64,000 nucleotides of DNA from Streptomyces sp. RFCAC02 (GTDB lineage: Bacteria; Actinomycetota; Actinomycetes; Streptomycetales; Streptomycetaceae), in NCBI RefSeq assembly GCF_004193175.1, contig NZ_SAUH01000001.1, forward strand, positions 372,001-436,000, written 5' to 3'. Below are positions 33,382 through 58,050 of this stretch, one piece after another (position 1 is the first letter of the stretch; each line of letters starts with the position of its first letter). Both the position numbers and the translations under genes were made by a program. The notes beneath the pieces were generated by a model that was not told the origin of the DNA, did not search any database, and was given only the letters and a program-made list of their open reading frames with translations.

Positions 33382-33798
33382 TCAGGCGGGGCCGTACGGG
33401 TCGTCGCCGGGCGGGGCCGACGGCAGCGGGGCGGCCCGTTTCACCAGCAGCGCCATCTCGTAGGCGACCTGTCCCAAGTCGGCGTCGGGCTCGGCCATCA
33501 CCGCGAGCGCGGCGCCCTGCCCGGCGGCCGTGACGAGGACGAACGCGCCGTCGAGTTCCACGAGGGTCTGCCGCACCGCGCCGGTCCCGAAGTGCCGCCC
33601 GACGCCCCGCGCGAGGCTGTGGAAACCCGAGGCCACGGCGGCGAGCTGCTCACCCGCGCTCTGGCCGAGGCCGCGCGACGCGCCGCGGGGCAGGCCGACC
33701 GCCGCCAGCAGCAGGGCGTGCCTGACCCCCGGGACCCGGTCGGCCAGTTCGTCCAGCAGGCCGCCGATCCCTCCGGGGCCGTTGGGAAGTTCACTCAT
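33382..33798 (-). CDS. Roadblock/LC7 domain protein (conservon CvnB-type)
   Basis: 138-aa roadblock-fold protein: LLDELADRVPGVRHALLLAAVGLPRGASRGL, then GEQLAAVASGFHSLARGVGRHFG, VELDGAFVLVTAAGQGAALAVMAEPDADLG and a C-terminal helix. This is the Streptomyces conservon second subunit, which binds and modulates a Ras-like GTPase (CvnD). It begins 9 bases after the kinase-like gene stop. The usual third and fourth genes (DUF742 and GTPase) do not follow: 33193-33381 is the intergenic space before a convergent gene. Confidence 0.92.
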   Translation of the reverse strand: MSELPNGPGGIGGLLDELADRVPGVRHALLLAAVGLPRGASRGLGQSAGEQLAAVASGFHSLARGVGRHFGTGAVRQTLVELDGAFVLVTAAGQGAALAVMAEPDADLGQVAYEMALLVKRAAPLPSAPPGDDPYGPA

Positions 33799-33807
33799 GG
33801 TCCTGCC

Positions 33808-36234
33808 TCACGGTTCGGGGCTTGCGGGGGTTCCGTCGGACGGGGGGCCGCCGGTCTGCTGCCGGCCGCGCCGCCAGCCGCGCTGGAGGGCCGCCACGCG
33901 GGCGCGCACCGCTTCGGCGTCCAGCTCGGGCGGGTCGTCGCCGGACGGGACGCCGCGGACGCCGGCACCCTCGGCGTCCGGGCCGTCCGGGCCGTCCGGG
34001 CCGTCCTTGGTGTCAGGGCCGCCGCGGGCGGCCGGGCCGCGGACCCGCCGGGGCAGACCGACGGGCGTGGCGGCCGGATGCCCCGGCGGATCGTCGTCGG
34101 GCGGCGGGGCGACGGGGCGGCCGTGGTCGGCCACCAGCACCGGCGCCCGGTGCCGGCGCGGCAGCCCCGGACGCCCGGGCGGGGCGCCGCCGGGCTCGCC
34201 CTCGCCGGGGGCGCCGTCGCGGACATCGCCGTCCCCGCCGCCCGGCTCGGTGCCGGCCGGTCCGACCGGGGCGTCCAGCTCCACCGGCCCGTCGACCGGC
34301 CCGCCGCGCAGCGCCGGTCGGCCGGGCACGTGCGACAGGCGGCGGGGCGGCTCGTCACGGGCCTCGGTGAGGAGCTCGCCCGGGACGAGGGTGACGGCCG
34401 TGGTGCCGCCGTACGGGGAGTCGCGCAGCGACACGCGGATGCCGTGCCGCTCCGCGAGACGCGAGACGACGAACAGGCCCACCCGGTCCGTGTCGGACGG
34501 CTCGAACTCCGGCGCGTCGGCCAGACGCGCGTTCGCCTCCCGCAGGGCGTCGGCCGTCATGCCGAGACCGCGGTCGTGGATCTCCAGGGTGAAACCGTGC
34601 GGCACCCGCTCACCGGTGACCTGGACGGCCGTGTGGGGCGGCGAGAAGACGGTCGCGTTCTCCAGGAGTTCGGCGACGAGGTGCACCAGGTCGGCGACCG
34701 CACCGCCCGCGACGGTCAGCGGCGGCAGGAGCCGCACCTCGACCCGTTCGAAGTCCTCGACCTCGGCGACGGCCGCCCGCACCACGTCCATCAGGGTCTC
34801 CGGGCGGCGCCACTGGCGGGCCGGCGCCGCGCCCGAGAGGATGACGAGCCCCTCCGCGTGCCGGCGCATCCGGGAGGCCAGATGGACGGCGCGCACGAGG
34901 TCACCCGCGTCGTCGGACGTGCCGGCGCGGCGTTCGACGGTCTCCAGGAGGGTGAGCTGACGGTGCAGCAGGACCTGGCTGCGGCGCGCGAGGTTCACGA
35001 AGACCTCGGCCATGCCGCGCCGGGTGCGGGCGCGGTCGACGGTGGCGCCGACCGCCTCGCGCCGGAGGGTGTTGACGGCCCGTCCGATCCGGCCCAGCTC
35101 GTCGTCGCCGTAGTCGAGGACCGGGGCCTCCGTCTCCACGTCCACGTGCTCGCCGGCGGCGAGACGGCGGACCACGCCCGGCAGCCGCGTCTCCGCCGCG
35201 TCCCTGGCCTCGCGGGACAGCGACCGCAGGTCGCGCACCAGGTCGCGGCCCACGCGCGCGGCCACCCACACCGACAGCGCGAGGGCGAGCGCGCCCGTCA
35301 CGAGCAGCAGCAGCGCCCGCGACCGCTGCCCCGAACTCTCCGGCGCGACCCCGGCCTCGTACCGGGCGCGGGCGTCGTCGCCCAGCTCGGCGAGGGCGTC
35401 GAGCGCCGTGGTGGCGGCCTCCTGCCAGTGGTCGGGGCGGACGGTGCCGGTGCGGCCGGCCAGCAGGTTCTGCTCGGCGTCGGCGAGGATGCGGGCGGTG
35501 CCGCCGCCGCTGAACGCCTCGTACGCCTCCCGGTCCTGGATCGGGAGGTCGGGGACGGCGGTCCGCTCGGCGAGGTCGCGCTGCGCCAGGAGGTCGGCGA
35601 GGGCGCGGAGTTCGCCGTCGGTGGTGCGGCCGAAGGCCAGCGCCCCGGAGACGAGCGCGTCCTCCTGCGACAGGAGGTCGCGCGCCCGCGCGAGGCCGAC
35701 GAGGGCGTGCCCCTGCGCGGCGAGCCCGGGGTCGTCCGTGGGGCGGAGCGTGTCGAGGAGGCGCAGGGCGGGGGTGACCAGGCCGGTGTAGGCGGCCAGG
35801 GCGTCGGGGCGGGAGATGGTGTTGCTGTCGACCTGTTCGCGCAGGGTGGCCAGGCCGTCGACGGCGTCGGTGAGGCCGGCGAGCCGGTCGCGGGCCGCGC
35901 CGGGCAGGTCCCCGGCGGCCGACCGGCCGAGGGAGTCGACCCGCTCGGCGGCCCCGGTGGCGCGTTCCCTGATGTCGCGCAGCGCGCTGAGTCCGTCGGC
36001 GCGGCGGGGGTCACCGAGCTGGACGAGGGTCTGGCGGCGCTCCTGCTGCACGGCGTCGACCAGGTCGAGCACCGGCCCGGTGAGCTTCTGCGCGGCGTCG
36101 CCCGCCGCGCCCGCGCCCCGGGCGTCCGGCACCGTGACGGCGACGGCGAGCGCCCAGACGGTCAGGAGCGACAGCAGCGGCACCAGGACCAGCGCCGTCA
36201 CCTTCCGCCGGATCGACTTGCCGCGAAAGCGCAT
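33808..36234 (-). CDS. Conservon CvnA-type nitrate/nitrite-sensing-like sensor histidine kinase
   Basis: 808-aa membrane sensor. N-terminal membrane segment (VTALVLVPLLSLLTVWALAVAV), a large extracytoplasmic NIT-like helical domain (about 40-315), a second membrane segment (ALLLLVTGALALALSVWVAARV), HAMP-like region, a dimerisation helix (RRSQVLLHRQLTLLETVERRA, lacking an obvious phospho-His H-box), and an ATPase domain with N-box HLVAELLENATVFSPP and G-box HDRGLGM. The C-terminal 190 residues are Pro/Gly/Asp-rich and disordered. Absence of a receiver gene and of a clear phospho-acceptor His is typical of conservon CvnA proteins. ATG at 36234 with GGGAGGG. Confidence 0.9.
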   Translation of the reverse strand: MRFRGKSIRRKVTALVLVPLLSLLTVWALAVAVTVPDARGAGAAGDAAQKLTGPVLDLVDAVQQERRQTLVQLGDPRRADGLSALRDIRERATGAAERVDSLGRSAAGDLPGAARDRLAGLTDAVDGLATLREQVDSNTISRPDALAAYTGLVTPALRLLDTLRPTDDPGLAAQGHALVGLARARDLLSQEDALVSGALAFGRTTDGELRALADLLAQRDLAERTAVPDLPIQDREAYEAFSGGGTARILADAEQNLLAGRTGTVRPDHWQEAATTALDALAELGDDARARYEAGVAPESSGQRSRALLLLVTGALALALSVWVAARVGRDLVRDLRSLSREARDAAETRLPGVVRRLAAGEHVDVETEAPVLDYGDDELGRIGRAVNTLRREAVGATVDRARTRRGMAEVFVNLARRSQVLLHRQLTLLETVERRAGTSDDAGDLVRAVHLASRMRRHAEGLVILSGAAPARQWRRPETLMDVVRAAVAEVEDFERVEVRLLPPLTVAGGAVADLVHLVAELLENATVFSPPHTAVQVTGERVPHGFTLEIHDRGLGMTADALREANARLADAPEFEPSDTDRVGLFVVSRLAERHGIRVSLRDSPYGGTTAVTLVPGELLTEARDEPPRRLSHVPGRPALRGGPVDGPVELDAPVGPAGTEPGGGDGDVRDGAPGEGEPGGAPPGRPGLPRRHRAPVLVADHGRPVAPPPDDDPPGHPAATPVGLPRRVRGPAARGGPDTKDGPDGPDGPDAEGAGVRGVPSGDDPPELDAEAVRARVAALQRGWRRGRQQTGGPPSDGTPASPEP

Positions 36235-36473: not shown

Positions 36474-36779
36474 GTGTACGCGAGACCCCGTATGCCGGAC
36501 CCGGTCAGGGCGGCGTGTGTGCGGGCCGGGATCATCGTGGCCCTGACACTGACTCAGCTCGTCATCGTGCTGCTGTGCACCCTGGCGGGCTCGTGGCTGG
36601 TCCTCCCGATGCTCGTGTGCACGCTCGCCAGCTCCGTCGTGGCCACCTGGTCGGTGCTCGACATCTGGATCACGCGGCAGCAGTGGCGGCAGCGGCACGG
36701 CGTGGTGTCCGTGCCGAGCAGCGTGGCGCGGCCCCGTCCCTGGCGGCGGGGGGACGAGGTCGGGCCGCCCTTCACCTGA
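36474..36779 (+). CDS. Small two-helix membrane protein
   Basis: 101-aa protein with two membrane segments (AGIIVALTLTQLVIVLLCTLA and LPMLVCTLASSVVATWSVLDIWI) and a basic, probably cytoplasmic tail (RQQWRQRHG...ARPRPWRRG). No family recognised. GTG at 36474 preceded by GAAGG; ATG at 36492 is an alternative. Divergent from the conservon kinase and convergent, 18 bases away, with the SMC-like ATPase gene. Confidence 0.7.
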   Translation: MYARPRMPDPVRAACVRAGIIVALTLTQLVIVLLCTLAGSWLVLPMLVCTLASSVVATWSVLDIWITRQQWRQRHGVVSVPSSVARPRPWRRGDEVGPPFT

Positions 36780-36797: not shown

Positions 36798-39700
36798 TCA
36801 GCCCTGGGCACCGTCCGGGGGCGGGCGGCGGAACACCCGCGTGGCGGTGATCTCCCCGTGCACGGTGGCTTCCCCGTCGGCGGCGGGCCGCGGCAGGCCG
36901 GGGCGCAGGTGCTCCTCCACGCTGATGTACTTCAGGCCGGCGCGGAGGTCCGCGTCGTTCCGCAGCCGGATGACGAGGGGGAACTCGGCCAGCGCCGTCG
37001 TGTCGAACAGGCCGGTGGTGTAGAGCAGTTGCACACCGAGGGCGTCGGCGACGGCGCGTTGCAGCTCCAGCAGGTAGGTGGCGTTGGCGCGGCCGATGGG
37101 ATTGTCGAGGAACAGGGTGCCGGCGTGCCGGTGCCGGTCGTGGCCGCGGTCGTTGCTGCGGAGGGCGGCCATCGTGCAGTACAGGGCGATCGCCGCGGTG
37201 AGGAGCTGGCCGCCGGAGAAGACGTCCCCCATCTGGCCGACCGGGACCCGCTCGGCGCGCAGCACGGCGTCCGGCTTGAGGATCTCGACCCGCACCCCGC
37301 GGGGCTGGAGCGCGGCGTGCACACCGCGCAGCAGGAGGGACATGCCGTCGCGGCGCAGGTCGGAGTTCTTCCGGACGGCGGCGCGCGTGGTCTCGTCCAC
37401 GACCTCGCCGAGGCGTTCGGTCAGGGTGGCCTGATCCGGGTCGTCGAACCGGATGCGCAGGAACTCCTGCCCCGACCACTCCCCCAGCCCCTCCGGCAGC
37501 CGGGACAGGCGCTGCGCGGCGCGGAGGGTGGCGAGCGAGGACTCGACGAGGCCGCGCAGGCGGTCCACGATGCTGCCGCGGTTGCGTTCGAGCTGGGCGA
37601 GTTCGTCGGTGAGCACGCGGAGCCTGGGCGCGAACGCCTCGGCCCAGGCCGCGGCGTGGGCCGGCAGGGCGGCGGCCGGAAGCTCGCGGATCTGCTGCCG
37701 GGCGGGGGTGCGGACCTGCTCGTAGCGGGTGGAGTTGGCGTGCCGGACGAGGCGGTCGGCCGCCTCCCGCACGGCCGCCTCCGCCGCCGCGAGGCCGGCG
37801 GCGCACGCCCGCAGCGCGCGGCGGGCGTCGGTCGCCGACTGCCTGGCCTCGGCCAGGGTGCCGGGCCAGGCGTCGGTGTCCTCGGCGGGCGCGGTGTCGC
37901 CGGTGCCGTCGGGCTCGGCGGACGGCTGGCCGGGGGCCGGGTCGCGCAGCAGGTCGCGCAGGAGGGCGGCCGTCTCGTCGAAGCCGCCCACGGCGTCCCT
38001 GGCCGCCGCGAGGTCGTGGAGCAGGCCGTCGTGGGCCTCGCGGGCGGCGGCGAGCGCGTCCTCGCGCTCGGCGAGGCCGGCGGTGGCGGCCTTCAGCAGC
38101 TCACGGGCGCGGTCCGCGTCCTCGGGGACGTCGTCGGGGGCGAGGTCGACGTGGCTCGCACCGTCGGCGGGGGCGAGCCGCTCGGCCTCGCCGCGCAGCC
38201 GGCCGAGCCGCTCGCTCGCGGCGGAGGCGCGGGACTCCAGGAGCTGCACCAGCCCCTCGGCGCGCGCCGCGGCGGCCTGGCGGGAGGGTCCGTCCGCGCC
38301 CTCGGTGCCCTCGAGGAGGGCCGCGGCGCGGGTGCGGACGCGGTTGCTGAGCCGGTCGAGGGCCGCGCGGGCCGCGCTCTCGTCGCTCTCGGCGCGGGCC
38401 TGTTCGGCGCGCAGGTCGGCGCCGACCCCGACCTTCTCGTAGAGCTGGGACGCGGAGCGGTACGCCTCCCGCAGGTCGGGCAGCGCGGCCCGGCCGGCGG
38501 TGCCGCCGGGAGTCCCGTCGTCGGAGACCTCGTCGTCGGGGGCGCCGGACACCTCCGCCCGTTCGGCGCGCAGGGCGCGGGCGGTGCGGCGGGCGTCGTC
38601 GGCGGCGCGCTGCACGCTCCTGCGGTCCTCGTCGGCCGCGCGGGCGCGCTCCAGGAACGCGGCGGCGCGGGCCTCCGACTCGGCGGCCTCGGCGGCCAGT
38701 TCGCGCAGCCTCGCCTGCCGGCGCGGCCGGTCGCGCAGCCGAAAGGCGAGGCCCGCGATGGCGTCGGCGGAACGGCGGGCGCGCTGCGCCGCCTCCTGCC
38801 GGGCGTCGCGGGCGGCGGCCGCCTCGGCCGCGGCCTCCTCCGCCTCGGCGCGGGTGGCGCCGGCCGCGGCCAGCCGCTCGCGCGCGGCGTCCGCCTCGGT
38901 GCGGGCGCGCCGTGCGGCGTCGGCCAGTTCGGCGAGACGGCCGGCCGGGCAGCCGGCCCGCCAGGACGCGATGCGCGCCGCGAGCCCCCGGTCCCCCGCG
39001 GTCCTGGCGGCGAGGGCGCGGATGTCCGCGTCCCGCTCGGCGGCGCGCCCGCGCAGGGCGCGGCGCTCGCCGTCGGCGGCGTGCTCGTCGTGCATGGCCG
39101 GGTTGGGCGGGACGAGGAACACGCCGCTGTCGGGCGCCGCCGACGGCGGTGTGGGGGCCAGGAGGGCGGCGGCCGTGCCGACGGCGACGGCGGAACGCGG
39201 CAGGAGCGCGGCCGACGCCAGGGCCTCGCGGGCGCGGGCGTGCCCGGCCGGGTCGGTGACGATGACGCCGTCGACCAGTTCGGGGCGGGCCGCGAGGACG
39301 GCCGCGTGGTCGGCGGGGTCGACGGCCTGGGCGAGGTAGCGCCAGCCGGGGAGGGCGGGGATGCCGTGCTCGCCGAGGTACTCGACGGTGGCGAGGACGT
39401 CGGGACCCGGCGGCAGGAGGCCGCCGTCGCCGAGGGCGGCGAGGATGCGGGCGTCGTCGGCGGCCGCCGTGCGCAGCTCGAACAGCCTGCGCTCGTCGGC
39501 CGCGGTGCGCTCGTCCAGGAGGCGTGCGAGGTCGTCCGCGGTGCGGTCCAGCTCCTCGGCGGTGAGCGCGGGGCCGGCCTCAGCGCCGGGTGCCGGGTCG
39601 CCCGCGGGGTCCTGCGGGAGCCCGAGGAGTTCGGACAGGCGTGGCTCGGCGGCCAGGGCGGCCGCGGTGCGGTGCTCCGCGCGCCAGGCCGCGCCGGCCG

Positions 39701-41444
39701 CCTCGGCCGCGTCCGCGGCGCGGGCGGCGGCCAGTTCGGCGCGGCCGTGGGCCGCGGTGGCCTGCCGGGCGTGCTCCGCCGCCCGGCCGGCGGCCTCCCG
39801 GGCGCTCTCCAGCGCGGCGGCGGCGGTCTGCGCGGCGTCGTCGGCCGCCAGCGCCGCGCGGGCCGGGTCGGCGCCCTCCAGCCAGCCGGCGCGGACCGCC
39901 TGTTCGGTCTCCTGGTCCATCTCGGCGAGGCTCTGCCGCAGGTGGTCGCCCTCGCTGCGCGCGCGCTGCGCCTCGGTGGCCGCGGTGGTGGCGTCGCGGT
40001 GGGCCGTCTCGGCGGCGGCCAGGAGGGTCGCCGACCGCTCCTCGTGCTCGGCGGCCACGCGTTCGCTGTCGGCGGCGGCGGTGCGCAGCGCGCGGACCAG
40101 GGCGGCGGCGGCCCGGCCGCGGGCGGCGAGGGCCGGGGCCGCGTCCCGTTCGGCCTCGCGGATGGCGGCGGCCACGCGGGCGGAGCGGTCGGCGGCGGCC
40201 CGGTGCCGCAGGACCGTCTCGGCGGCCTGCCACGCGGCCTGGAGGGTGCGGGCCTCGGTCAGCTCGCGGCGTTGCGCCGCCGCGGCCTTCTCGGCGGCGG
40301 TGAGGGCGAGGGACGCGTGGCGGTAGGCCAGTTCGGCGGCGGTGCGGGCGGCGAGGCCGCGGGCGCGCTCGGCCTCGGTGACGGTCAGGGCGGCGGCTGC
40401 CGCGCGCTCCTCCAGCGCGGTGGTGCGGTCCCGCTCCGCCCGGCCGCGGGCGGCCAGGCGCCGGGCGAGGCCCCGGACGCGCTGTTCGGCTGCGGTGTGG
40501 ACGCCGCGGGCTGCGTCCCGTTCGGCGGCGGCCTCGGTGATGCGGGTGAGGAGGTCGACGGAGCCGGCCGTGAAGTCACGCTCGGCGGTCAGCTCGGCGC
40601 GGCGGCCGAGCTTGTGGGCGAAGCCGTGCACCAGGTCGGCGAGGCCGTCGGTGTCGCGGGTGTCGGTGACCGCGCGCAGCAGCAGGTCGGTGAAGTCGGC
40701 GTCGTGCCGGACGGCGAAGAGGCCGGCGGCCTCGCCCTCGTCGGCGTTCATCTCGCGCTGGTAGCGGAAGAGTTCGGGGTCGAGACCGAGGCCGCCGAGG
40801 TGGTCGATCCAGCGTTCGTGGATCTCCTCCCAGACGACGTCCAGGTTCGGGTAGGTCCTCCCGGTCTCGGTGAGGACGTCGCGGAAGCCCTTCATCGTGC
40901 GGCGGCGTCCGCGGGCGCCGGAGGCGCCGTCGGCGCGCGGGCGCAGGGCGGTGGACTCGGCCACGGGCAGGGAGTCCAGGCTCATGCCGGGCCCCGGCCG
41001 GAACGAGTACCACGCCTCGGCGAACCGCCGCGGGTCGCTGGAGACCTGGTGGCCGCGCCACTCGCTGACCTTGCCGACGACGACCGTCTCGCCGGTGCGG
41101 GTGTGCTGCCACTCCAGGGCCACGTGGCCGCAGTCGTCGGCGAGGAGGAACTTGCGCAGCACGCCGGAGCTGGCGCCGCCCAGGGTGTTGCGGTGGCCGG
41201 GCAGCATGACGGAGAAGATCAGCTTGAGCAGCACCGACTTGCCGCCGCCGTTCTCCAGGAACAGGACGCCGGCCGGCGCGGGCCTGCGCGGCGGCCCCTG
41301 CGGCTCGTCCTCGAAGAAGTCGGCCTGGGCGGGCGCCGGTTCGGGGACGGGCGCGCCCACGCCGCGCAGGTCGAGGAGGGTGTCCGCGTACCGGGCGCCC
41401 GCCGGGCCGATGGAGTACAGACGGATGCGGGCCAGCTCGTACAT
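36798..41444 (-). CDS. SMC/MukB-like coiled-coil ATPase (subunit C of a three-gene cassette)
   Basis: 1548-aa protein built like an SMC/MukB/SbcC ATPase. The N-terminal head has a P-loop ENGGGKS (Walker A, residues 64-70; K69) in GVLFLENGGGKSVLLKLIF. About residues 300-1330 are long Ala/Arg/Glu-rich heptads, i.e. coiled-coil arms, with a less helical patch near the middle that could be a hinge. The C-terminal head has the ABC signature FSGGQ (1409-1413) and Walker B LFLDN (D1447, N1448), then a D-loop-like PIGRANATYLLEL and an H-switch region QLLYTTG. The catalytic Glu expected after the Walker B Asp is Asn. Last gene of the cassette, 33 bases after the KITE-like gene, so a stable complex with the two smaller proteins is expected. 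It is not the TIGR02680/Wadjet type II JetC, as its N-terminus differs. Chromosome condensation or foreign-DNA restriction are the options. Confidence 0.88.
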   Translation of the reverse strand: MYELARIRLYSIGPAGARYADTLLDLRGVGAPVPEPAPAQADFFEDEPQGPPRRPAPAGVLFLENGGGKSVLLKLIFSVMLPGHRNTLGGASSGVLRKFLLADDCGHVALEWQHTRTGETVVVGKVSEWRGHQVSSDPRRFAEAWYSFRPGPGMSLDSLPVAESTALRPRADGASGARGRRRTMKGFRDVLTETGRTYPNLDVVWEEIHERWIDHLGGLGLDPELFRYQREMNADEGEAAGLFAVRHDADFTDLLLRAVTDTRDTDGLADLVHGFAHKLGRRAELTAERDFTAGSVDLLTRITEAAAERDAARGVHTAAEQRVRGLARRLAARGRAERDRTTALEERAAAAALTVTEAERARGLAARTAAELAYRHASLALTAAEKAAAAQRRELTEARTLQAAWQAAETVLRHRAAADRSARVAAAIREAERDAAPALAARGRAAAALVRALRTAAADSERVAAEHEERSATLLAAAETAHRDATTAATEAQRARSEGDHLRQSLAEMDQETEQAVRAGWLEGADPARAALAADDAAQTAAAALESAREAAGRAAEHARQATAAHGRAELAAARAADAAEAAGAAWRAEHRTAAALAAEPRLSELLGLPQDPAGDPAPGAEAGPALTAEELDRTADDLARLLDERTAADERRLFELRTAAADDARILAALGDGGLLPPGPDVLATVEYLGEHGIPALPGWRYLAQAVDPADHAAVLAARPELVDGVIVTDPAGHARAREALASAALLPRSAVAVGTAAALLAPTPPSAAPDSGVFLVPPNPAMHDEHAADGERRALRGRAAERDADIRALAARTAGDRGLAARIASWRAGCPAGRLAELADAARRARTEADAARERLAAAGATRAEAEEAAAEAAAARDARQEAAQRARRSADAIAGLAFRLRDRPRRQARLRELAAEAAESEARAAAFLERARAADEDRRSVQRAADDARRTARALRAERAEVSGAPDDEVSDDGTPGGTAGRAALPDLREAYRSASQLYEKVGVGADLRAEQARAESDESAARAALDRLSNRVRTRAAALLEGTEGADGPSRQAAAARAEGLVQLLESRASAASERLGRLRGEAERLAPADGASHVDLAPDDVPEDADRARELLKAATAGLAEREDALAAAREAHDGLLHDLAAARDAVGGFDETAALLRDLLRDPAPGQPSAEPDGTGDTAPAEDTDAWPGTLAEARQSATDARRALRACAAGLAAAEAAVREAADRLVRHANSTRYEQVRTPARQQIRELPAAALPAHAAAWAEAFAPRLRVLTDELAQLERNRGSIVDRLRGLVESSLATLRAAQRLSRLPEGLGEWSGQEFLRIRFDDPDQATLTERLGEVVDETTRAAVRKNSDLRRDGMSLLLRGVHAALQPRGVRVEILKPDAVLRAERVPVGQMGDVFSGGQLLTAAIALYCTMAALRSNDRGHDRHRHAGTLFLDNPIGRANATYLLELQRAVADALGVQLLYTTGLFDTTALAEFPLVIRLRNDADLRAGLKYISVEEHLRPGLPRPAADGEATVHGEITATRVFRRPPPDGAQG

Positions 41445-41477
41445 CGTGGAGGTCCTTACGCGAACGGGGGCACGGCC

Positions 41478-42329
41478 TCAGCCGTGGAACGGGAGGCCGG
41501 CGTCGGGCACGAGCCCCAGTGCGTCCTCGTCGGTGGGGGGCAGGAGGGTCCCGCTGCCGTCGGCGACGGGGACGATGCCGAGGGCGAGGAGCTCGCCCAT
41601 GGCGGCGGTGGCGGCCAGTTCGCGGACCTGGAGGCGGTAGCGGGCGGTGGTGCGGAAGGTGCCGCCCGCCTCGTCCCCGGTGCGCTGGAGGAAACCGGAG
41701 TCGGCGAGGAAGGCGACGGCCTTGCCGACGATGCCGGTGGTGGAGCCGGCGAGGCGGCGGGCGTCCTTCGTCGCGCCGGTCGCGGTGCGGCGGGCGTAGA
41801 CGCGCCAGGCGGCCTCGAGGCCGGGGCTGTCGGTGGCGGGGTCGGTGTTCTCGCCGTGCTCGGCGGCCTGTTCGGCGAGGCGGCGGCACGCCTGGCGGAC
41901 GAACGCCTCGACGCCGCCCACGGTGACGCGCCCGATGTACCCGTCGTCGGCGAGGTCGGCCGGGCGGGGGAACGCCAGGGCCGCGACCGCGAGATGGGCC
42001 AGGCCGTGGAGGAAGCGGTCGGCGGTGTCGGTGGCGGCGCGGCGGGCGTACTCGCTCATGCGGACGGCGAACACCGAGTCCTCCGCGGCGGCGACGGCCA
42101 TCCCCGCGCCGGGGGACACCTCCAGGACGACGAGGCCGAGGCCGGCGGCGACGGCGTCGGCGAGGCGGGCGAACGGCGGCTCCTCCTGGTAGCGGCGCAG
42201 CAGGGTGCCGTATTCGGCGTCCCGGGCGGGTGAGACCTTCGGCTGGAGGCCGAAGGAGACGAGCCGGGCGGCGTCGGCGGCGTCGCCGGGGGTGAGGGGG
42301 GCGGCGACGGGCCGCTCGGTGTCGGTCAT
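41478..42329 (-). CDS. MukE/KITE-like accessory protein (subunit B)
   Basis: 283-aa protein of no family I can name. It is alpha/beta with predicted winged-helix character: helix-rich DRFLHGLAHLAVAALAFPRP, then GYIGRVTVGGVEAFVRQACRRLAEQAAEHG, and a C-terminal part VGKAVAFLADSGFLQRTGDEAGGTFRTTARYRLQVREL that reads like a wHTH. Size and position between a kleisin-like and an SMC-like gene match MukE/JetB/KITE subunits. ATG at 42329 overlaps the stop of the preceding gene in an ATGA, so translation is coupled. No JetB/DUF4194-type motif is recognisable, so the assignment rests on context and fold impression. Confidence 0.8.
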   Translation of the reverse strand: MTDTERPVAAPLTPGDAADAARLVSFGLQPKVSPARDAEYGTLLRRYQEEPPFARLADAVAAGLGLVVLEVSPGAGMAVAAAEDSVFAVRMSEYARRAATDTADRFLHGLAHLAVAALAFPRPADLADDGYIGRVTVGGVEAFVRQACRRLAEQAAEHGENTDPATDSPGLEAAWRVYARRTATGATKDARRLAGSTTGIVGKAVAFLADSGFLQRTGDEAGGTFRTTARYRLQVRELAATAAMGELLALGIVPVADGSGTLLPPTDEDALGLVPDAGLPFHG

Positions 42330-43858
42330 GCGGTGCCTTCCGTCCGCTCCTGGGCCATGCCGGCCGCGTCCAGCAGGGCGGTGCCGACGATGAGGTCGGC
42401 GCCGCCGATGTCGGGGTCGGTGAGCTCGGTGCCGTCGTCCACGGCGAACAGCAGGCGCGGTTCGCCCTGGCGGTAGGCCGTGCCGACGGGCGGGCTGGCC
42501 GCGTGGACGGCGAGCAGGGCGACGAGGTGCGGCAGGTCGGGGTCGGCGCGGCGGGCGTCGGCGAGGAGGCCGGACAGGCGGCGCGGGGCGTCGTCGGGCA
42601 GCCGCAGCAGGTCGAGGGCGGTGGCGAGCTGCTCCTCGGTGAACCGGCTGTCGTCGGGTGTGGCGACGAGGTCGGGCTCGGGCAGCTCGGCGCCGAGGTG
42701 GTCGCGCGGCGCGGGCGGGGTGAGGAGCTGTTCGGTGAGGTCGGCGAGGCGGACGGCGCCCGGCGGGCGTGGTGCCGTGCCGCGGGCGAAGAACGCGTCG
42801 GTGACGCGGGTGGCGCGCTCCAGCGGCTCGGTCAGCAGGGGGGCGAGGAGCTGCCCGTACAGGTCGGTGCCGGCGCGGGCGGCGGGCGCGGCGAACGCCT
42901 GCCGGTCCTGCTCGGCGCGGAAGAGCGGGCCCGCCTCCAGCAGGCGGGACTGGAGCTGGGTGTGGCGGCGGATGCAGTCCTTGACGATGTCGACCAGCTC
43001 GGCGGCGCGCAGCCGGTGGCCCGGCGCCGTGGCCTCGTCGCGGGCGCGGCGGATGTTGGTGAGGATCGCGTTCTCGTGGCGGTAGCGGTCGGCGATGTGG
43101 TCCAGGGCCTCGGCGATCATGTCGGGGACGGCCCTGAGCCAGTCGACGGAGCGGACGTCGCGGCGGGTGCTCTCCAGGGTGCGGCGCAGGGCCTCGGCGT
43201 ACTGGACGGTGCGGTAGCGGGCCTGTTCGGCGGCGAGCTGGGCGTCGGCGAGGCGGCCCCGGCTGATGAGGACCTCCAGTTTGACCTCGGCGGCGATCTG
43301 GGCGCTGGTGACGTCGGTGTCGAGGGCGCCGACGAGGACGTTGACGGCCTCGTCGGTGGTGCGCAGCCACACGCCGCCGCCGGGGCCCGGGACCTCCTCG
43401 ATGAGCTTGAAGTCGTAGTCGCGGCGGACGTAGGAGCCGTCGGGGTCGAAGGTGCCGTAGACGGCGCGGAAGCCGCGGTTGACGCTGCCGACGTTGATCA
43501 GGTTGTCGAGGACCCAGCGGGCGACGCGCTCGTGCTCGGCGGCGGGGCGGGCCGGCGCCTGGGCGGCGACGCGCGGCAGCAGGCGGGCGACGATCAGCTC
43601 GTGGTCGGCGCCGGCGTCGAAGTCCATGGCGAGGGTGACGAGGTCGATGGCGGCGAGCGCCACCTCGGCCATGCTGTAGGTGCTGTACTCGCCGGCCAGG
43701 TTGGCCTTGCGCGCGTCGAGGTCGTGGAGGGGGGCGGTGCAGGCGAGGGCGCGCAGGCGGCGGGCCAGTCCCTCGTCCGCGGCCGGCCCGGGAGCCGGCC
43801 TGGTGGGGAGCTGACCCGCACCGGTCGGCGCGTGTGTCGACGAGGCGGGTGCGGTCAC
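42326..43858 (-). CDS. MukF/kleisin-like protein (subunit A)
   Basis: 510-aa helical protein, first gene of the cassette. N-terminal block: LHDLDARKANLAGEYSTYSM then AEVALAAIDLVTLAMDF, followed by RWVLDNLINVGSVNRGFRAVYG and a beta-strand stretch (GSYVRRDYDFKLIEE), together like a winged helix. The middle is long helices (TAAEVKLEVLIS, RYRTVQYAEALRRTLESTRRDVRSVDWLRAVPDMIAEALDHIADRYRHENAILTNIRRARDEA), as in the MukF/JetA middle region, then a more disordered C-terminus. I infer a MukF-type role: dimerising wHTH plus helical linker that bridges the ATPase heads. Start GTG 43858 is chosen for the conserved block 30 residues later; the ribosome-binding site (AGGG, -12) is weak. A 101-base gap separates it from the phosphatase gene upstream. 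Confidence 0.78.
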   Translation of the reverse strand: MTAPASSTHAPTGAGQLPTRPAPGPAADEGLARRLRALACTAPLHDLDARKANLAGEYSTYSMAEVALAAIDLVTLAMDFDAGADHELIVARLLPRVAAQAPARPAAEHERVARWVLDNLINVGSVNRGFRAVYGTFDPDGSYVRRDYDFKLIEEVPGPGGGVWLRTTDEAVNVLVGALDTDVTSAQIAAEVKLEVLISRGRLADAQLAAEQARYRTVQYAEALRRTLESTRRDVRSVDWLRAVPDMIAEALDHIADRYRHENAILTNIRRARDEATAPGHRLRAAELVDIVKDCIRRHTQLQSRLLEAGPLFRAEQDRQAFAAPAARAGTDLYGQLLAPLLTEPLERATRVTDAFFARGTAPRPPGAVRLADLTEQLLTPPAPRDHLGAELPEPDLVATPDDSRFTEEQLATALDLLRLPDDAPRRLSGLLADARRADPDLPHLVALLAVHAASPPVGTAYRQGEPRLLFAVDDGTELTDPDIGGADLIVGTALLDAAGMAQERTEGTA

Positions 43859-43959: not shown

Positions 43960-46077
43960 TCAGTAGGGGGTGTGGTTGCGGGCCAGGAGCAGGGCCACGT
44001 CGTCGGCGGGCGTGGCGCGGCGGCGGCCGGCGAGGACGCGGTCGCACGTCTCCTCCAGCGGGGCCGGGGGGCCTTCGAGGAGGGCGCGGAGGGCTTCGAG
44101 TCCCTCGTCGATGGGGGCGTCGCGCTCCTCGACGAGGCCGTCGGTGAACAGGGCGATGGTCGCCCCGTCCGGCAGCGGTCTGCGGTCCTCGGTGAACGGG
44201 ACCCCGCCGACGCCGAGGGGGACGGCGTTGGGCAGCCGCAGCAGGTCGGCGGTGCCGTCGGGCTGGACCAGGACGGGCGGCAGGTGCCCGGCGCTGGCGA
44301 TGGTGCACCGGCCCGCTGCCGGGTCGCACACGGCGTACACGCAGGTGGCGATCGTCGTGCCGAGGGAGCGGACCACCTCGTCGAGGTGGCCGAGGAGTTC
44401 GGCGGGCGGCAGGTCGAGGCGGGCCAGGGCGCGGATGGTCGAGCGCAACTGGCCCATGATGGCGGCGGCGTGGACGCCCTTGCCCATGACATCGCCGACG
44501 ACGAGTCCGAAGCGGCCGTCCGACAGCCGCAGGACGTCGGCCCAGTCGCCGCCGGCCTCGCTGACGGCGGGCAGGTAGCGCAGGGCGACGTCGAGGTCGC
44601 GGCCCTCGGGGAGCTGGGGGCGCAGGCTGCGCTGGAGGATGAGCGCGATGTCGCGCTGGCGGCCGTAGAGGCGCGCGTTGTCCACGCTGATGGCGGCGCG
44701 GGCGGCGAGTTCGCCGGCGAGGGCGAGGTCCTCGGTGTCGAACGGGCGGCGCTCGCGCGTACGGCTCAGGGTGAGCGTGCCGAGGACGTCGCCGCGGGCG
44801 ATGAGCGGGACGACGAGCGCCGAGTGGACGCCGGCCCGTGCCAGCGCCGCGGCGGCGTCCTCGTCGCGGGCGATGCCGGGCAGTTGCTCGGACCCCAGCC
44901 GGGTGAGCAGCCGCGGCCTCGCCTCCCGTGCGACATCCGTGACCACGTCGGGCGCGGCGTGGCCGGCGCCGTCGCTCAGCGGGTGGGCGGCGCGGCCCTC
45001 GCGGGCGGCGGCGCGTGCGACGGCGGCCAGGGTGCGGACGAGGGCGGGGCCGTCCCGGAGGGATGGGGTGCCGGCCTCGTTGTCGAGGACGGCGTCGAGG
45101 ATGTCGACGGCGGCGAGGTCGGCGAGCCGGGGCACGGTGACGGCGGCGAGTTCGCGGGCGGTCGTGGCCAGGTCGAGGGTGGTGCCGATGCGGGCGCCGG
45201 CGTCGGCGATGACGGCGAGGCGCTCGCGGGCTGCGCTGACCTCGGCGACGGCCTGCTCCCGTTCCGTCACGTCCAGGGCGGCCGCCGCGACGCCGTAGGT
45301 GCGGCCGCCGGGGACGGCGACGCGGTAGTAGGAGACGGACCAGATGTGCTCGTGGCCGGGGTCGGCGAGGGTGCGGGCCGTCGTGTGCTGGCCGAGGAGG
45401 GGCTCGCCGGTGGCGAGGACGCGGCGCAGGGCCGCCTCGACCCCGGTCAGGTCCGCGCCCCGCCATGTCTCGCCGAAGCGGCGGCCGGTGAGCCGGTCGG
45501 CGGGCAGGCCGGTCAGTTCCTCCATCGCCGGGTTGGCGCGGATCCAGCGGAGTTTGGCGTCGAGGAGGGCGATGGACAGCGGCGACTGGTCGACGATGCC
45601 GGCGGACAGCGCGAGGTCGGTCTCCAGGCGGCGGACGGTGCCGGTGCCGGCGGCGATGACGAGGGCGCGCGGCTCGCCGTGCGGTCCTGCCGTCCACTGG
45701 GCGCGGAACTCGGCCCGGCGCAGCAGGCCGTCGGCGAACCGCACGGGCAGGCCGCCCGACCAGTCGGGGCCGCCGGGCCTGCGCAGCCAGTCGGCGGTGA
45801 GGCGGCGGGGGCGCCCGGGGCCGAGCAGGTCGACGACGGAGCGGCCGGTGACGGCGTCGGCGCGGTGGCCGAAGAGGCGTTCGGCGCCGGGTCCCCACAG
45901 CAGGACGCGCCCGGCGCCGTCGAGGACGATCTCCGCGATGGCGAGCGTGTCGAGGAGGCCGCCGGGCGGCGTGACGGCGTCGTGGACGGTGCCGGGTCCC
46001 CGCGGCGCGACGGGGTCCGACGCCGTGCCGGTCTCCTGCTCGGGGTCGCGGGGGCCGTCGCCCGGTGGTCGGTTCAT
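43960..46077 (-). CDS. PAS-PAS-GAF-PP2C (SpoIIE-type) phosphatase
   Basis: 705-aa cytosolic signalling phosphatase. Two PAS domains (about 40-150 and 165-290, e.g. ILDAKLRWIRANPAMEELTGLPADRLTGRRF), a GAF domain (about 300-470), then a SpoIIE/RsbU-type PP2C. The metal-ligand motifs are present: AGGDWADV, GDVMGKGVHAAAIMGQLRS, LFTDGLVEERD and PADDVALLLAR. It probably dephosphorylates an anti-anti-sigma protein, in a partner-switching pathway. Start ATG at 46077; it lies 8 bases after the stop of the phosphatase-like gene upstream, so they form an operon. Confidence 0.92.
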   Translation of the reverse strand: MNRPPGDGPRDPEQETGTASDPVAPRGPGTVHDAVTPPGGLLDTLAIAEIVLDGAGRVLLWGPGAERLFGHRADAVTGRSVVDLLGPGRPRRLTADWLRRPGGPDWSGGLPVRFADGLLRRAEFRAQWTAGPHGEPRALVIAAGTGTVRRLETDLALSAGIVDQSPLSIALLDAKLRWIRANPAMEELTGLPADRLTGRRFGETWRGADLTGVEAALRRVLATGEPLLGQHTTARTLADPGHEHIWSVSYYRVAVPGGRTYGVAAAALDVTEREQAVAEVSAARERLAVIADAGARIGTTLDLATTARELAAVTVPRLADLAAVDILDAVLDNEAGTPSLRDGPALVRTLAAVARAAAREGRAAHPLSDGAGHAAPDVVTDVAREARPRLLTRLGSEQLPGIARDEDAAAALARAGVHSALVVPLIARGDVLGTLTLSRTRERRPFDTEDLALAGELAARAAISVDNARLYGRQRDIALILQRSLRPQLPEGRDLDVALRYLPAVSEAGGDWADVLRLSDGRFGLVVGDVMGKGVHAAAIMGQLRSTIRALARLDLPPAELLGHLDEVVRSLGTTIATCVYAVCDPAAGRCTIASAGHLPPVLVQPDGTADLLRLPNAVPLGVGGVPFTEDRRPLPDGATIALFTDGLVEERDAPIDEGLEALRALLEGPPAPLEETCDRVLAGRRRATPADDVALLLARNHTPY

Positions 46078-46085
46078 GGCTGCTC

Positions 46086-48577
46086 TCAGCCCCGCTCCAG
46101 CGACTGCTCGGTCCAGATGGTCTTGCCCGCGCCGGTGTACCTGCTGCCCCAGCGGCGGGCGAGCTGGGCGACGAGGAACAGGCCGCGTCCGCCCTCGTCG
46201 GTGGGGCGTGCCCGGCGCAGGTGCGGCTGGGTCTCGCTGGGGTCGGAGACCTCGCACACGAGGGTGTCGTTCAGGATGAGCCGCAGGCCGATGGGGCCGC
46301 CCGCGTAGCGGATGGCGTTGGTGACCAGTTCGCTGACGATGAGTTCGGTGGGGAAGGCGTTGCCGGTGAGGTCCCAGTCCTTCAGCTGGTCGATGACGGC
46401 GTCGCGGGCGCGGCCGACGACCTCGGCGTCGGCGGGGAACTCCCAGTCGGCGGTGGCGCCGGGCGGCAGCGGCTGCACGCGGGCGACGAGGAGGGCCACG
46501 TCGTTCGACGGGGCGCGGTCCGGCAGCAGGGCGTCCAGCAGGGATTCCCCGATGTCGGCCGGGGAGCGTTCGCCGGCCGCCTCCTCGGTGACGCGGGCAC
46601 GCAGCAGGTCGCGGCGGCGCTCCGCGGGTGGTCGCGCCGGCCCGGGGGCGACGAGTTCCCCGCTGTGGAGGACGAGGAGGCTGTCCGGTTCGACGCCGAT
46701 GCGGACCGACTCGAACGGGACGCCGCCGACGCCGAGGGGCGGTCCCGCCTTGAGGGCGATCTCCTCGGCGGGACGTCCGGGCGCGGCGACGAGGGGGGCG
46801 ATGCGGCCGGCGGCGGCCAGGACGCACTGGCTGGTGACGGGGTCGTAGACGCAGTACAGGCAGCTCGTGCCGACGGCGCCGCCGGCAGCGGCGCCGCTGC
46901 CGTCCGGCCGCCCGCCGTCCTCGCCGGCCGCGGCGGGGGGCGCGGTGTCGGCCAGCCGGGTCGCGAGGTCGTCGAGCCGCGTGAGGAGTTCGTCCGGCGC
47001 CAGGTCCATGTCGGCGAGGGTCTGCACGGCGGTCCGCAGCCGTCCCATGGTGGCCGTCGCGCCCAGGCCGTGCCCGGCGACCGTGCCGATGACGAACGCG
47101 ACGCGCGCCGACGACAGCGGGATGACGTCGTACCAGCTCCCGCCGATGCCCGCCGCCGTCACGGCGGGCAGGTAGCTGCCCGCGCTGTGCGCCCCGGGCA
47201 GTTCGATCACGGGCTGGGGCAGCAGGCTGCGCTGGAGGCTCTCCAGGGTGCGGTGCTCGCGGGTGTAGCGGCGGGCGTTGTCGAGGCTGAGGGCGGCGCG
47301 GGAGCCGATCTCCTCGATCAGGTCGGCGTCCTGGCGGGTGAAGCGGGGCCGCGCGGGCGACCGCCACAGCGCGAGGACGCCCAGCTGCTGCCCCCGGGCG
47401 CGCAGCGGGACGAGGAGCCCGGAGCCGGGTTCACCGGACAGCACGCCCCTGCCGTCGCCGGGGCCGGCCGCCTCGTCCTGCGCCGTCGGCCCGAGCGGGG
47501 TGACGCGCAGGTTGTCCCAGTGCGGTTCCAGGACGACGCCGGTGCCGCCCGGCAGATCCGGCAGGGCGTCCACGCGGAACAGCGCCCCGGTCCTGCGCAG
47601 GCCGGCCGGCCAGTGGCCGTCCGCCGACACGGCGGCGACGCGGCGCACGGGCGGGCCGAGGAGCGAGGGTCCCGGCTCGTCGCCGGCGAGGACGGCCGCC
47701 CCGAGGTCCACGGTGGCGAGGTCGGCGAAGCCGGGGACGAGGACGGCGGCCAGCTCGTGGGCGTTGCGCTGCACGTCGAGGGACGGGCCGATGCGTTCGC
47801 TGGCCCGGTGCAGGATCGCCATGCGGCGGCGCGCCTGGTGCTGCTCCGTGATGTCGGTGAACAGGCTGACGATGCCGAGGACGTGCTGGTCGGCGTCCTT
47901 CAGCCGGAGGGCCGTGACGGCGAGGACCCGCTCGCGGTCGGGCGCCGACACGAGGCGGGCGGGGTGCTCGGAGTAGATGAGCGGCTCACCGGTGCGCGCC
48001 ACGTGGTCGAGGCGTTCCTGAAGCGGACCGGCGTCCTCGGGGACGACGAGGGCGCCGAGCGGCTGGGGCAGCGGCAGGGCGCGCAGGGGGCCTGTGGCGT
48101 CGGGGTGGCGGCCCGGCGGCAGGTTCATGCGCGTGATGGCCAGGGTCTCGTCGTGGATGGCGATGCCGACCTGGTTCTGCGCGAACAGGGCGCGCAGCAG
48201 GGCCTGGTCCTCCTGCCGGCGCCGCGCGGCGGGCCCGGGGGTGAGGACGACGAGGTACCGCGACAGGGCGTCGTCGGGGACGTCCAGGGGGAAGAGGTCG
48301 AGCCGCGCCTCCGTCACGGCGCCGCCCGGGTGCCGCAGCGGTACGGCCCGGTGGACGCTGCCGTCGGCGCGGGTCATGCCGGCCCAGGAGTCCGGGTCGG
48401 CCAGCAGCCCGGGCATCGTGGCGTGCGCGAGGTCGTCGAACGTGCGGCCGGTCAGCTCGACGGCCAGCGCGCCGGTGCCGCCTGCGCGGGCGCGGACCGT
48501 GCCGTCGGCGGCGACGATCAGGAGGAGGGACGCCCCGCCGGGCAGGGCGCCGGCGGGGGCTGCGGGACGGCGCTCAC
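46086..48577 (-). CDS. PAS-GAF-PP2C-like-HATPase signalling protein, degenerate PP2C, uncertain 5' end
   Basis: About 820-aa multidomain protein: PAS domains (SLLLIVAADGTVRARAGG..., ALFAQNQVGIAIHDETLAIT...), a GAF domain (ILHRASERIGPSLDVQRNAHEL...), a SpoIIE-type PP2C-like domain, and a C-terminal RsbW-like ATPase (FPTELIVSELVTNAIRYAGG; DEGGRGLFLVAQLARRWG). The PP2C metal ligands are missing: GGSWYDV for GGDWYD and GTVAGHG for GDVxGHG. 5' end: no ATG/GTG/TTG is available in the domain frame. The best start, GTG at 48577 with GAGGGAGG, is in another frame that stops after about 20 codons near 48518, so the coordinates cross a probable frameshift (length not a multiple of 3). An internal ATG at HATMPGLL would lose part of the first PAS. 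May also be a sequencing error. Confidence 0.78.
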
Positions 48578-49243: not shown

Positions 49244-50737
49244 TCACGCCCCCCGGTCGGAGGGCGCGCGGGTGCCGCCGGGCCGCCCGCCGAGCCGGCC
49301 GCGCACGGCCGTCTGCACGTCCGCCTGCTCGGCGGGATCGGCGGCGAGGCGGCGCAGGCGCTCCACGACACGGGCGTCCACGGTGGTGGCGTGCCGCGCG
49401 CCGGTCGCGCGGGTGTCCTCCTCGCAGTCCCAGAGGCACTCGACGGCGAACCCGGCGGCGAACGACGGGTCCGTCACGGCGAGCGCGCCGGCCGCCTCCC
49501 CGCGCAGCCGTGAGGAGGCCGTCTCCCGGTACACACGGCGCAGGACGGGCACGGCGCCCCGGATCCCGAGCCGGCCCGCGCCCTCGATCAGGGGCCGCAG
49601 CTCCTCGGCCTGCGCTCCGTGCCGCCGCAGGGCGCGGCGCAGGGCGTCCAGCACGGCGGGCGCGTCGCCCGGGTCGCCGCGGCGGGCCAGGACGGTGGCG
49701 GCCGTGGTGCCGAGCGCGTCGTCGCGGCGCGCCCACCGCCTGGCGTGGGCCAGCGCGTCGGGGCCGCACATGCGGGTGAAGGCGGTCAGCGCGGCGCGTG
49801 CGACGTCCGCGTCGGGCGCGGTGGCGGCCGCCTCGATGAGGGGGCAGACGTCCGGGTCGTCGCGCTCGGCGAGGTGGCGGAGCGCGGCGGCGCGGGCGGC
49901 GGGGGCGCCGTCCGCCGCCGCGGCCAGCAGCTCCGGGCGGTCGCCCGGACCCGCGACCGCGCCGAGGCAGCGGGCGGCGGGGGCCTCGCGCCACTGGCGC
50001 GGCACGCTGTCCCAGCCGTCCTGCGCCCAGGCGAGGACGGCGCCGACGCTCCATCCGGGGCGCGGCCCCGGCGGGCGGAGCTGCCGCTGCCAGCGGTCGA
50101 AGGACCCGGCCTCCAGGGCGCGGGCGAGGCGGGCGCGCTGGGCCGGCCGGGCCGGGTCCCGCGCCCACAGGTGCCAGGGGCGGGGCTCGAACGCGTCGCG
50201 GACGGCGGCGGCGAGCGCCGCGTCCCCCTCCTCACCGGCCGGGAAGCGGGCCAGGACGGCCGGGCCGATCGCGGCGAGGCCCGCGTCGTCGTCGTGGACG
50301 GCGAGTTCGTCGAGCGCCCACCGCCAGTTCGCGCCGTGGACGGCGTACTGGCGCAGGAGGGCGAGGGCGCTGGTGTTGAGGCGCGCGGCGGTGGACCCGG
50401 AGCTGTGGGTGAGGCCGGTGAGGTGGCCGAGGACGGACAGGGCGAGGCCGGTGCGTTCCTCGTCGGGCAGGAGCAGGTCGTCCGGGTCGGCGAGGTGGGC
50501 GGCGATGGCGTCGAGGCCGGCGTCCAGCTCGGCGTAGAGACGGGCGTAGTAGAGCGAGCGGTGTTCGAGCTGCCAGTCGTGGCGGGGGTCGTGCAGCACG
50601 CAGTGGTCGACGGCGGCCACCGCCTCCGCCCGGGGGGCGGCCAGCGCGTGCAGCCAGCCGTCGCCGCGCCCTCGCTGGAGGAGCCCGAGAAGGCTTCCGC
50701 CGGGCGCTATGTCGGTTTCGGTGGGACTGGCGAACAT
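49244..50737 (-). CDS. HEAT-repeat protein
   Basis: 497-aa helical solenoid. N-terminal block IAPGGSLLGLLQRGRGDGWLHALA is shared by a Streptomyces group of HEAT-repeat proteins. The C-terminal half shows repeated HEAT/PBS-lyase-like units (ARAAALRHLAERDDPDVCPLIEAAAT; VARAALTAFTRMCGPDALAHARRW; GTTAATVLARRGDPGDAPAVLDALR; RPLIEGAGRLGIRGAVPVLRRVYRE). No catalytic residues are evident; a scaffold or protein-interaction role is likely. ATG at 50737 chosen; ATG at 50749 is possible. Divergent from the PP2C-like gene at 51006. Confidence 0.85.
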   Translation of the reverse strand: MFASPTETDIAPGGSLLGLLQRGRGDGWLHALAAPRAEAVAAVDHCVLHDPRHDWQLEHRSLYYARLYAELDAGLDAIAAHLADPDDLLLPDEERTGLALSVLGHLTGLTHSSGSTAARLNTSALALLRQYAVHGANWRWALDELAVHDDDAGLAAIGPAVLARFPAGEEGDAALAAAVRDAFEPRPWHLWARDPARPAQRARLARALEAGSFDRWQRQLRPPGPRPGWSVGAVLAWAQDGWDSVPRQWREAPAARCLGAVAGPGDRPELLAAAADGAPAARAAALRHLAERDDPDVCPLIEAAATAPDADVARAALTAFTRMCGPDALAHARRWARRDDALGTTAATVLARRGDPGDAPAVLDALRRALRRHGAQAEELRPLIEGAGRLGIRGAVPVLRRVYRETASSRLRGEAAGALAVTDPSFAAGFAVECLWDCEEDTRATGARHATTVDARVVERLRRLAADPAEQADVQTAVRGRLGGRPGGTRAPSDRGA

Positions 50738-51005
50738 ATGAGTCAGCATCCGGTGCGGTTGTGCCGGTGGCAACGGGATTTCCGTCCTGGCGGCTCCCAA
50801 CCGGTGCGGAGCCCGGCTCCACCATGCCATCCCGGCCGCCCGGCGCCCAAGGAACGGGCCGCGGCGCGAGCGGCTGATTATGGCGTGGCGCGGGTAGGTC
50901 TGTGTCAGAGTCGGACCCGTCCGGCGCCCGGTGCACCGGCCGCGGACGGCGGGAGCGCGCACGGGCAGGGCCACGCGGGGTTGCCGCGGCGGGTGGGAGG
51001 CGGAG

Positions 51006-57789: not shown

Positions 57790-58050
57790 CGTGCGTCGCT
57801 CGCCCCCCGTCCGTCCTCCGTGCCCGCCCCCTTGTCCTCCAGTATGGTCACCGGGCGCGAGGGTTCCTATGCCGGAGAACGGCAAAGTGACGGCCCGGAA
57901 GCTTTCCGGCGCGTCACGGGAGGACGCGCGCGCCGCGGACGGCACGGGTCGCGCGGGGCCGGCGGCAGCGCGCCGCCGTCGCCCGAACCGGCGACACGGA
58001 CCGCGGCGGCCGTACCCTCCCGCCACTCCCCCAGGTGACGGCGGGGCGGC

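Follow-up and report, generated by a model that had tools for sequence, protein, structure and literature searches.

A JetABC core without its nuclease, conserved across Streptomycetaceae, as a possible second chromosome organiser

We analysed a 64,000-nucleotide stretch of the Streptomyces sp. RFCAC02 genome (assembly GCF_004193175.1, contig NZ_SAUH01000001.1, positions 372,001 to 436,000; hereafter the window), in which three genes on the minus strand, arranged in the order A-B-C, form a compact cassette (Table 1). Genes A and B are joined by an ATGA overlap and a 33-base gap separates B from C; the open reading frames (ORFs) of these abutting or overlapping genes have the sizes described in a first-pass annotation, which a model had made from the sequence alone. 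PADLOC searches showed that A matches JetA3 (PDLC00567) at 4e-182 over residues 25-507 and that C matches JetC3 (PDLC00588) with an E-value of 0 and 1362 bits over residues 1-1544, and both the homology and the predicted fold of B are like those of JetB and MukE, KITE proteins. The cassette is the JetABC core of a type III Wadjet system. The first-pass annotation could not name a described family for the two small subunits, and here it fell short, since the PADLOC families cover A and C. A few relatives of A are named DUF3375 domain-containing in their source records.

Other collections returned little for the three proteins. None of them matched Pfam, and NCBIfam gave one chance match far under its cut-off and no TIGR02680, in agreement with the earlier view that the cassette is not a type II Wadjet; no Muk or Mks family was matched in either collection. 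No relative of C emerged from sequence searches of the PDB, which for A gave just one ribosomal match, attributable to chance (E 0.98). Profile searches were empty for B and listed no more than designed TIM barrels for A; we take these to be artefacts of composition. The predicted structure of A is a poor model (predicted template modelling score, pTM, 0.35) whose structural matches are mostly helical bundles; among the 50 matches listed, none is named JetA or MukF, and the one at rank 9, a MukBEF chain of 1109 residues and hence MukB by length, proves nothing. A is thus a putative kleisin by its JetA3 match and not by structure. A-B-C has the kleisin-KITE-SMC plan of three subunits without a nuclease that MukBEF and MksBEF have, and the first-pass reading, in which a KITE subunit like MukE and an SMC-like ATPase accompany a JetA-type protein and JetD is lacking, is supported.

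The residues found at the two ends of C bear out the Walker A, ABC signature and Walker B motifs that had been placed there. Of the 93 family rows, one gave no pattern match for Walker A and eight gave none for the signature and for Walker B, probably because of cut contigs or frames. SMC proteins usually have a catalytic glutamate where the Walker B of C has asparagine. The same DNP is present in JetC of type III systems that retain JetD, indicating that it is a family trait and that the change is not tied to loss of JetD. Conservation along C is highest in its two end parts and rises a second time in the middle of the protein, as would be expected for a head-arm-hinge-arm-head molecule. In five pairs, the ratio of nonsynonymous to synonymous substitution rates (dN/dS) of A, B and C was 0.14-0.31, which, together with the intact motifs, argues that the cassette is no remnant. 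Overall, the first-pass annotation is borne out in part; one of its options, a regulated remnant, runs counter to the conservation across the family and to purifying selection.

The Toprim nuclease JetD of type III Wadjet systems is missing. Neither PF09983 nor the JetD3 profile detected it in the window genome, and a 101-amino-acid ORF on the plus strand follows the cassette, confirming both that no JetD comes after jetC and that the next gene downstream is small and on the opposite strand. JetD follows jetC in 0 of 80 named loci of the family clade, 66 of which have at least 2 kb after jetC, so that the JetD-like fourth gene that the first-pass annotation had thought worth seeking in other genomes was not seen in any of these 66. 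Likewise, it follows jetC in 0 of 19 loci of a second clade, that of Frankia (12 with more than 1.2 kb after jetC). The genes downstream of jetC in 11 Frankia loci and in locus L180, read by eye from the sequence as candidates for an alternative nuclease in fourth place, look unrelated. An external nuclease, another option of the first-pass annotation, found no support in a nuclease search that was limited to JetD, by Pfam and by the JetD3 profile.

Related loci outside these two clades behave differently. PF09983 occurs in 29 of the 246 Streptomyces genomes searched, but by itself it is insufficiently sensitive (it missed the JetD3 of genome G007), and the JetD3 profile was therefore used as well. 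A renewed search covered 26 genomes: 22 that had given at least two JetA matches, split or very short ones among them, and four others. It included two short second-copy JetA hits, in G083 and G128, which are not among the fetched loci. A JetD profile was built from 13 of the fetched second-copy loci and then run on the loci. Where the end of jetC could be read, JetD lay directly after it in 29 of 30 loci that had been fetched through a JetA or JetB hit and lie outside the D-less clades (17 in L151-L167, nine in L210-L218, plus L185, L192 and L194; the exception is L180), 13 of the 29 being the profile's own seeds. PADLOC independently names JetD3 in five of five tested, all of them seeds. Two loci cut by contig ends (L168, L193) were excluded, and L169 and L170, which have JetD and were fetched for that reason, were not counted. 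Over 36 whole genomes, the JetD3 profile matched at full length only in G107, G007 and G151, the carriers of accessory JetABCD; in G165 and G463 its matches were short fragments. G107 has both kinds: its D-less copy shows 81% identity, its JetABCD copy 39%. In a comparison that used every second family row, only 4, 1 and 5 residues in A, B and C, respectively, are common to the JetD-bearing cousins and changed in the D-less family; these changes are mostly conservative, and no lost JetD interface is therefore visible. In two genomes (G151:C1:59816 and 8045146; G090:C1:8876 and 9228843; loci L163 and L165), equally scoring JetA copies of the accessory type III kind sit at mirrored positions close to the two contig ends, as if JetABCD had been duplicated in terminal inverted repeats.

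The first-pass annotation had asked whether the cassette is conserved across Streptomyces, and it is. JetA was found in 240 of 246 Streptomyces genomes (237 of 239 among good assemblies) and in 138 of 140 genomes of the family, a sample that shares genomes with the first, covering 17 of 17 genera; genus and family names were assigned from named relatives. The only JetA copy found in G632 is a distant accessory JetABCD, which brings the real family count to about 137 of 140. Each of A, B and C was matched in all 77 family loci with long flanks. A cassette found across a bacterial family is more than chance. A class-wide sample gave JetA in 60 of 394 genomes, 40 of them Streptomyces, 19 from one other family and one from a third. 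The second family appears to be Frankiaceae, judging from a locus that matches Frankia and Pseudofrankia proteins, and a JetA match was obtained in 19 of 35 of its genomes. Frames are split in a few copies (G171, G224, G634, L034), and one locus, L224 (G168:C1:782500-802000), holds a decayed cassette in which jetC is matched only in its C-terminal half and the HEAT-repeat gene described below is retained. Of 72,556 plasmid records, 4 contain a JetA relative, in each case at less than 60% identity. The median distance from jetA to the nearest contig end is 14% of the contig (24 genomes), and ScpA is present in 10 of 10 genomes tested.

A JetA tree of 74 selected rows, comprising the window copy, 24 further copies from the family and those other loci that contained enough JetA, placed the 25 family rows in one clade with support of 100/98 and the Frankia copies in a second with 100/100. 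The D-less state is thus not local to the window; it is family-wide, in one well-supported clade. At least three changes of JetD presence are needed on this tree. Because its root is the midpoint, the direction of these changes is an inference, and the simplest account is a minimum of two losses of JetD. Holding Streptomycetaceae and Frankia together as one clade was not rejected (p 0.42). A single D-less clade that also includes L180 was rejected (p 0.008). L180 itself (L180:2434-9277) is a D-less JetABC outside both clades, with genes read by eye as gap, pgk and tpi directly downstream. The usual single close copy per genome and the shared synteny suggest vertical inheritance of the cassette.

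Among the JetB proteins compared, one feature sets the family apart. At the end of JetB of Streptomycetaceae, a poorly predicted linker leads into a motif with the consensus DDLELVADAGLPFHS, and A-x-LPF is found in nearly every family JetB (Table 1). GLPF was seen within the last 40 residues in 0 of 19 Frankia JetB and in 0 of 30 JetB from JetD-bearing loci. Among 6587 frames of at least 150 amino acids in the loci, JetB rows included, 91 have GLPF in their last 14 residues, and the DNA pattern for GLPFH plus a stop occurs once in the whole genome, at jetB. The motif may resemble clamp-binding peptides or the C-terminal peptide of SSB.

Of the neighbouring genes, one encoding a HEAT-repeat protein is linked to jetA by position. 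In 43 of 43 genomes in which both were placed, it shares the strand of jetA and lies upstream of it, with 28 nt to 37 kb separating the match ends. The shortest distances are those in three further genera of the family (28-193 nt), deep branches of the JetA tree, and in two Streptomyces (261 and 273 nt). The gene was not found in 11 Frankia-family genomes, G598 or G632, and it is present in all four searched family genomes that lack a jetA match. Its absence from Frankia and its distance in most Streptomyces weaken the idea of an obligate partner; we regard its product as a lead suggested by position, not as a subunit. The tandem SpoIIE phosphatases directly upstream of jetA were considered as operon partners and set aside, as they are matched in only 12 and 8 of the 77 loci, with median identities of 41% and 52%. 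Downstream, matches to the NIT-kinase occur in 47 of the 77 loci; the NIT-HATPase and Roadblock genes resemble part of a Streptomyces conservon. PADLOC found no match in nine other window proteins except for one protein-kinase-like protein. The latter (55969-58026, minus strand) matches PD-T4-6 and other kinase-type defence models and is probably an ordinary Ser/Thr kinase.

Table 1. Features of the cassette and its surroundings (window positions)
Feature	Position	Strand	Remarks
Gene A, JetA3-type (kleisin-like)	42326..43858	-	510 aa, GTG start
Gene B, JetB-type (KITE, MukE-like)	41478..42329	-	283 aa, ATG start
Gene C, JetC3-type SMC ATPase	36798..41444	-	1548 aa, ATG start
Walker A of C, LFLENGGGKS (residues 61-70)	41235..41264	-	in 92/93 family loci
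ABC signature of C, FSGGQ (residues 1409-1413)	37206..37220	-	in 85/93 rows
Walker B of C, LFLDNPIG (residues 1444-1451)	37092..37115	-	in 85/93 rows
Hinge-like conserved middle of C, residues ~641-760	39165..39524	-	conservation profile; hinge inferred from position
C-terminal tail of B, LVPDAGLPFHG	41481..41513	-	A-x-LPF in 92/93 family JetB
101-aa ORF after jetC, convergent	36474..36779	+	matches in 50/77 loci
NIT-HATPase sensor and Roadblock gene	33382..36234	-	downstream of cassette
Two tandem PAS-GAF-SpoIIE phosphatases, second with HATPase	43960..46077, 46086..48575	-	directly upstream of jetA
HEAT-repeat gene (conserved part given, exact start codon uncertain)	49244..50827	-	Pfam HEAT_2 1e-13

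On balance, and by analogy with related complexes, we favour the interpretation that the cassette encodes a nuclease-free loop extruder derived from Wadjet and kept beside SMC-ScpAB as a DNA organiser, in which a partner bound to the JetB tail replaces the JetD output. Among the options raised by the first-pass annotation, a chromosome organiser appears to fit best; the identity of the genes, the absence of JetD, the conservation, the purifying selection and the JetB tail are observed, and the chromosomal function, the loop extrusion and the recruitment of a partner are proposed. In such a complex, C would dimerise via its hinge and hydrolyse ATP at its heads, A would bridge the heads and B would bind A, and two such units would probably pair. 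A core of the JetABC/MukBEF type is considered to extrude DNA loops, with JetD cutting a small circle once the motors converging on it meet (available text of PMC10586767). With JetD absent, the motor would only shape DNA; the complex most likely still extrudes loops but cannot cut. A type III Wadjet core may have lost JetD in an ancestor of Streptomycetaceae, either jointly with Frankia or independently, and then have been retained for chromosomal housekeeping, usually in one close copy per genome, as an organiser of its host's own DNA (the chromosome and possibly large replicons) beside SMC-ScpAB. The new JetB tail (AGLPFH) would recruit a partner in Streptomycetaceae at the point where JetD had been the output. 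A more elaborate version, which we put forward only tentatively, holds that the domesticated Wadjet acts as a second condensin, its AGLPFH tail docking a host factor (either a replisome protein or the HEAT protein in the role of a HAWK-like subunit) and control of the chromosome being shared with SMC-ScpAB, which would help to explain why smc mutants are mild.

Alternatively, the cassette could still serve defence, JetABC sensing circular or foreign DNA and recruiting an unrelated nuclease encoded elsewhere, possibly via the JetB tail. The matches of A and C to Wadjet subunits, the accessory JetABCD with its nuclease in the same genus, and a new tail that could recruit another effector are all consistent with this. 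We nevertheless judge it unlikely: in a nuclease search confined to JetD, the window genome has none and the 33 searched genomes without an accessory copy have no full-length JetD3, the single PADLOC hit among the nine other window proteins is the kinase-like one, and the cassette is near-universal and syntenic whereas accessory JetABCD is patchy. Compaction without cutting, in the manner of eukaryotic Smc5/6, might also silence or limit extrachromosomal DNA. A conserved, nuclease-free motor would suit such a role, and the related Mks complex is reported to act on plasmids (available text of PMC7083940). However, in Corynebacterium glutamicum loss of MksG is described as affecting plasmids just as loss of MksB or MksF does, so that cutting seems to be needed there (available text of PMC10123090), and nothing here links the cassette to plasmids; we consider this possibility just as doubtful as retained defence. 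That the cassette is a decaying remnant of a Wadjet system is hardly credible: the nuclease is gone, the G168 locus is broken and a few copies have split frames, but the motifs are retained, dN/dS is low and JetA is present in 240 of 246 Streptomyces genomes.

The preferred reading, a nuclease-free DNA organiser, bears on how chromosome folding is studied. Streptomyces serves as a main model of how linear bacterial chromosomes fold. If nearly every species has a second SMC-type complex, Hi-C maps and the mild smc phenotype would be read differently. In Streptomyces venezuelae, Hi-C work treats SMC as the condensin at work (available text of PMC8410768). The family also offers a natural test of conversion between Wadjet and chromosomal condensin by loss or gain of a nuclease, and, where D-less and D-bearing cousins share a genome, as in G107, one kind of motor is available for comparison in forms that have the cutter and forms that lack it. 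The pattern suggests a weapon turned into an undescribed second chromosome organiser. A literature search (mostly open access, no preprints; titles and the starts of abstracts) found no report on a nuclease-less JetABC in Streptomyces or Frankia.

Among known systems, type III Wadjet has the subunits JetA3 and JetC3, which A and C match almost end to end, and shares the A-B-C order and the Walker B variant; the cassette differs from it in lacking JetD, in being near-universal in a family rather than accessory, and in its extra conserved JetB tail. Most Wadjet work is on type I, according to the part of a 2023 review available (PMC10586767), and a survey of Actinobacteria describes Wadjet as enriched toward Streptomyces chromosome ends (available text of PMC10482375). 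MukBEF of Escherichia coli has no sequence-level match to the cassette, whose hosts also have ScpA. MksBEFG of C. glutamicum is, like the cassette, an actinobacterial JetABC-type complex, but it has the nuclease MksG and acts on plasmids (available text of PMC7083940 and PMC10123090), with no role in chromosome folding (available text of PMC7083940). MksBEF of Pseudomonas aeruginosa comprises a kleisin, a KITE protein and an SMC protein without a nuclease, beside SMC-ScpAB, as in the cassette, and likely arose by loss of JetD (available text of PMC10586767); A, B and C have no Pfam match and thus belong to a different lineage. MksBEF is reported to organise the P. aeruginosa chromosome (available text of PMC7485682), and by analogy the cassette may play a comparable chromosomal role in Streptomyces.

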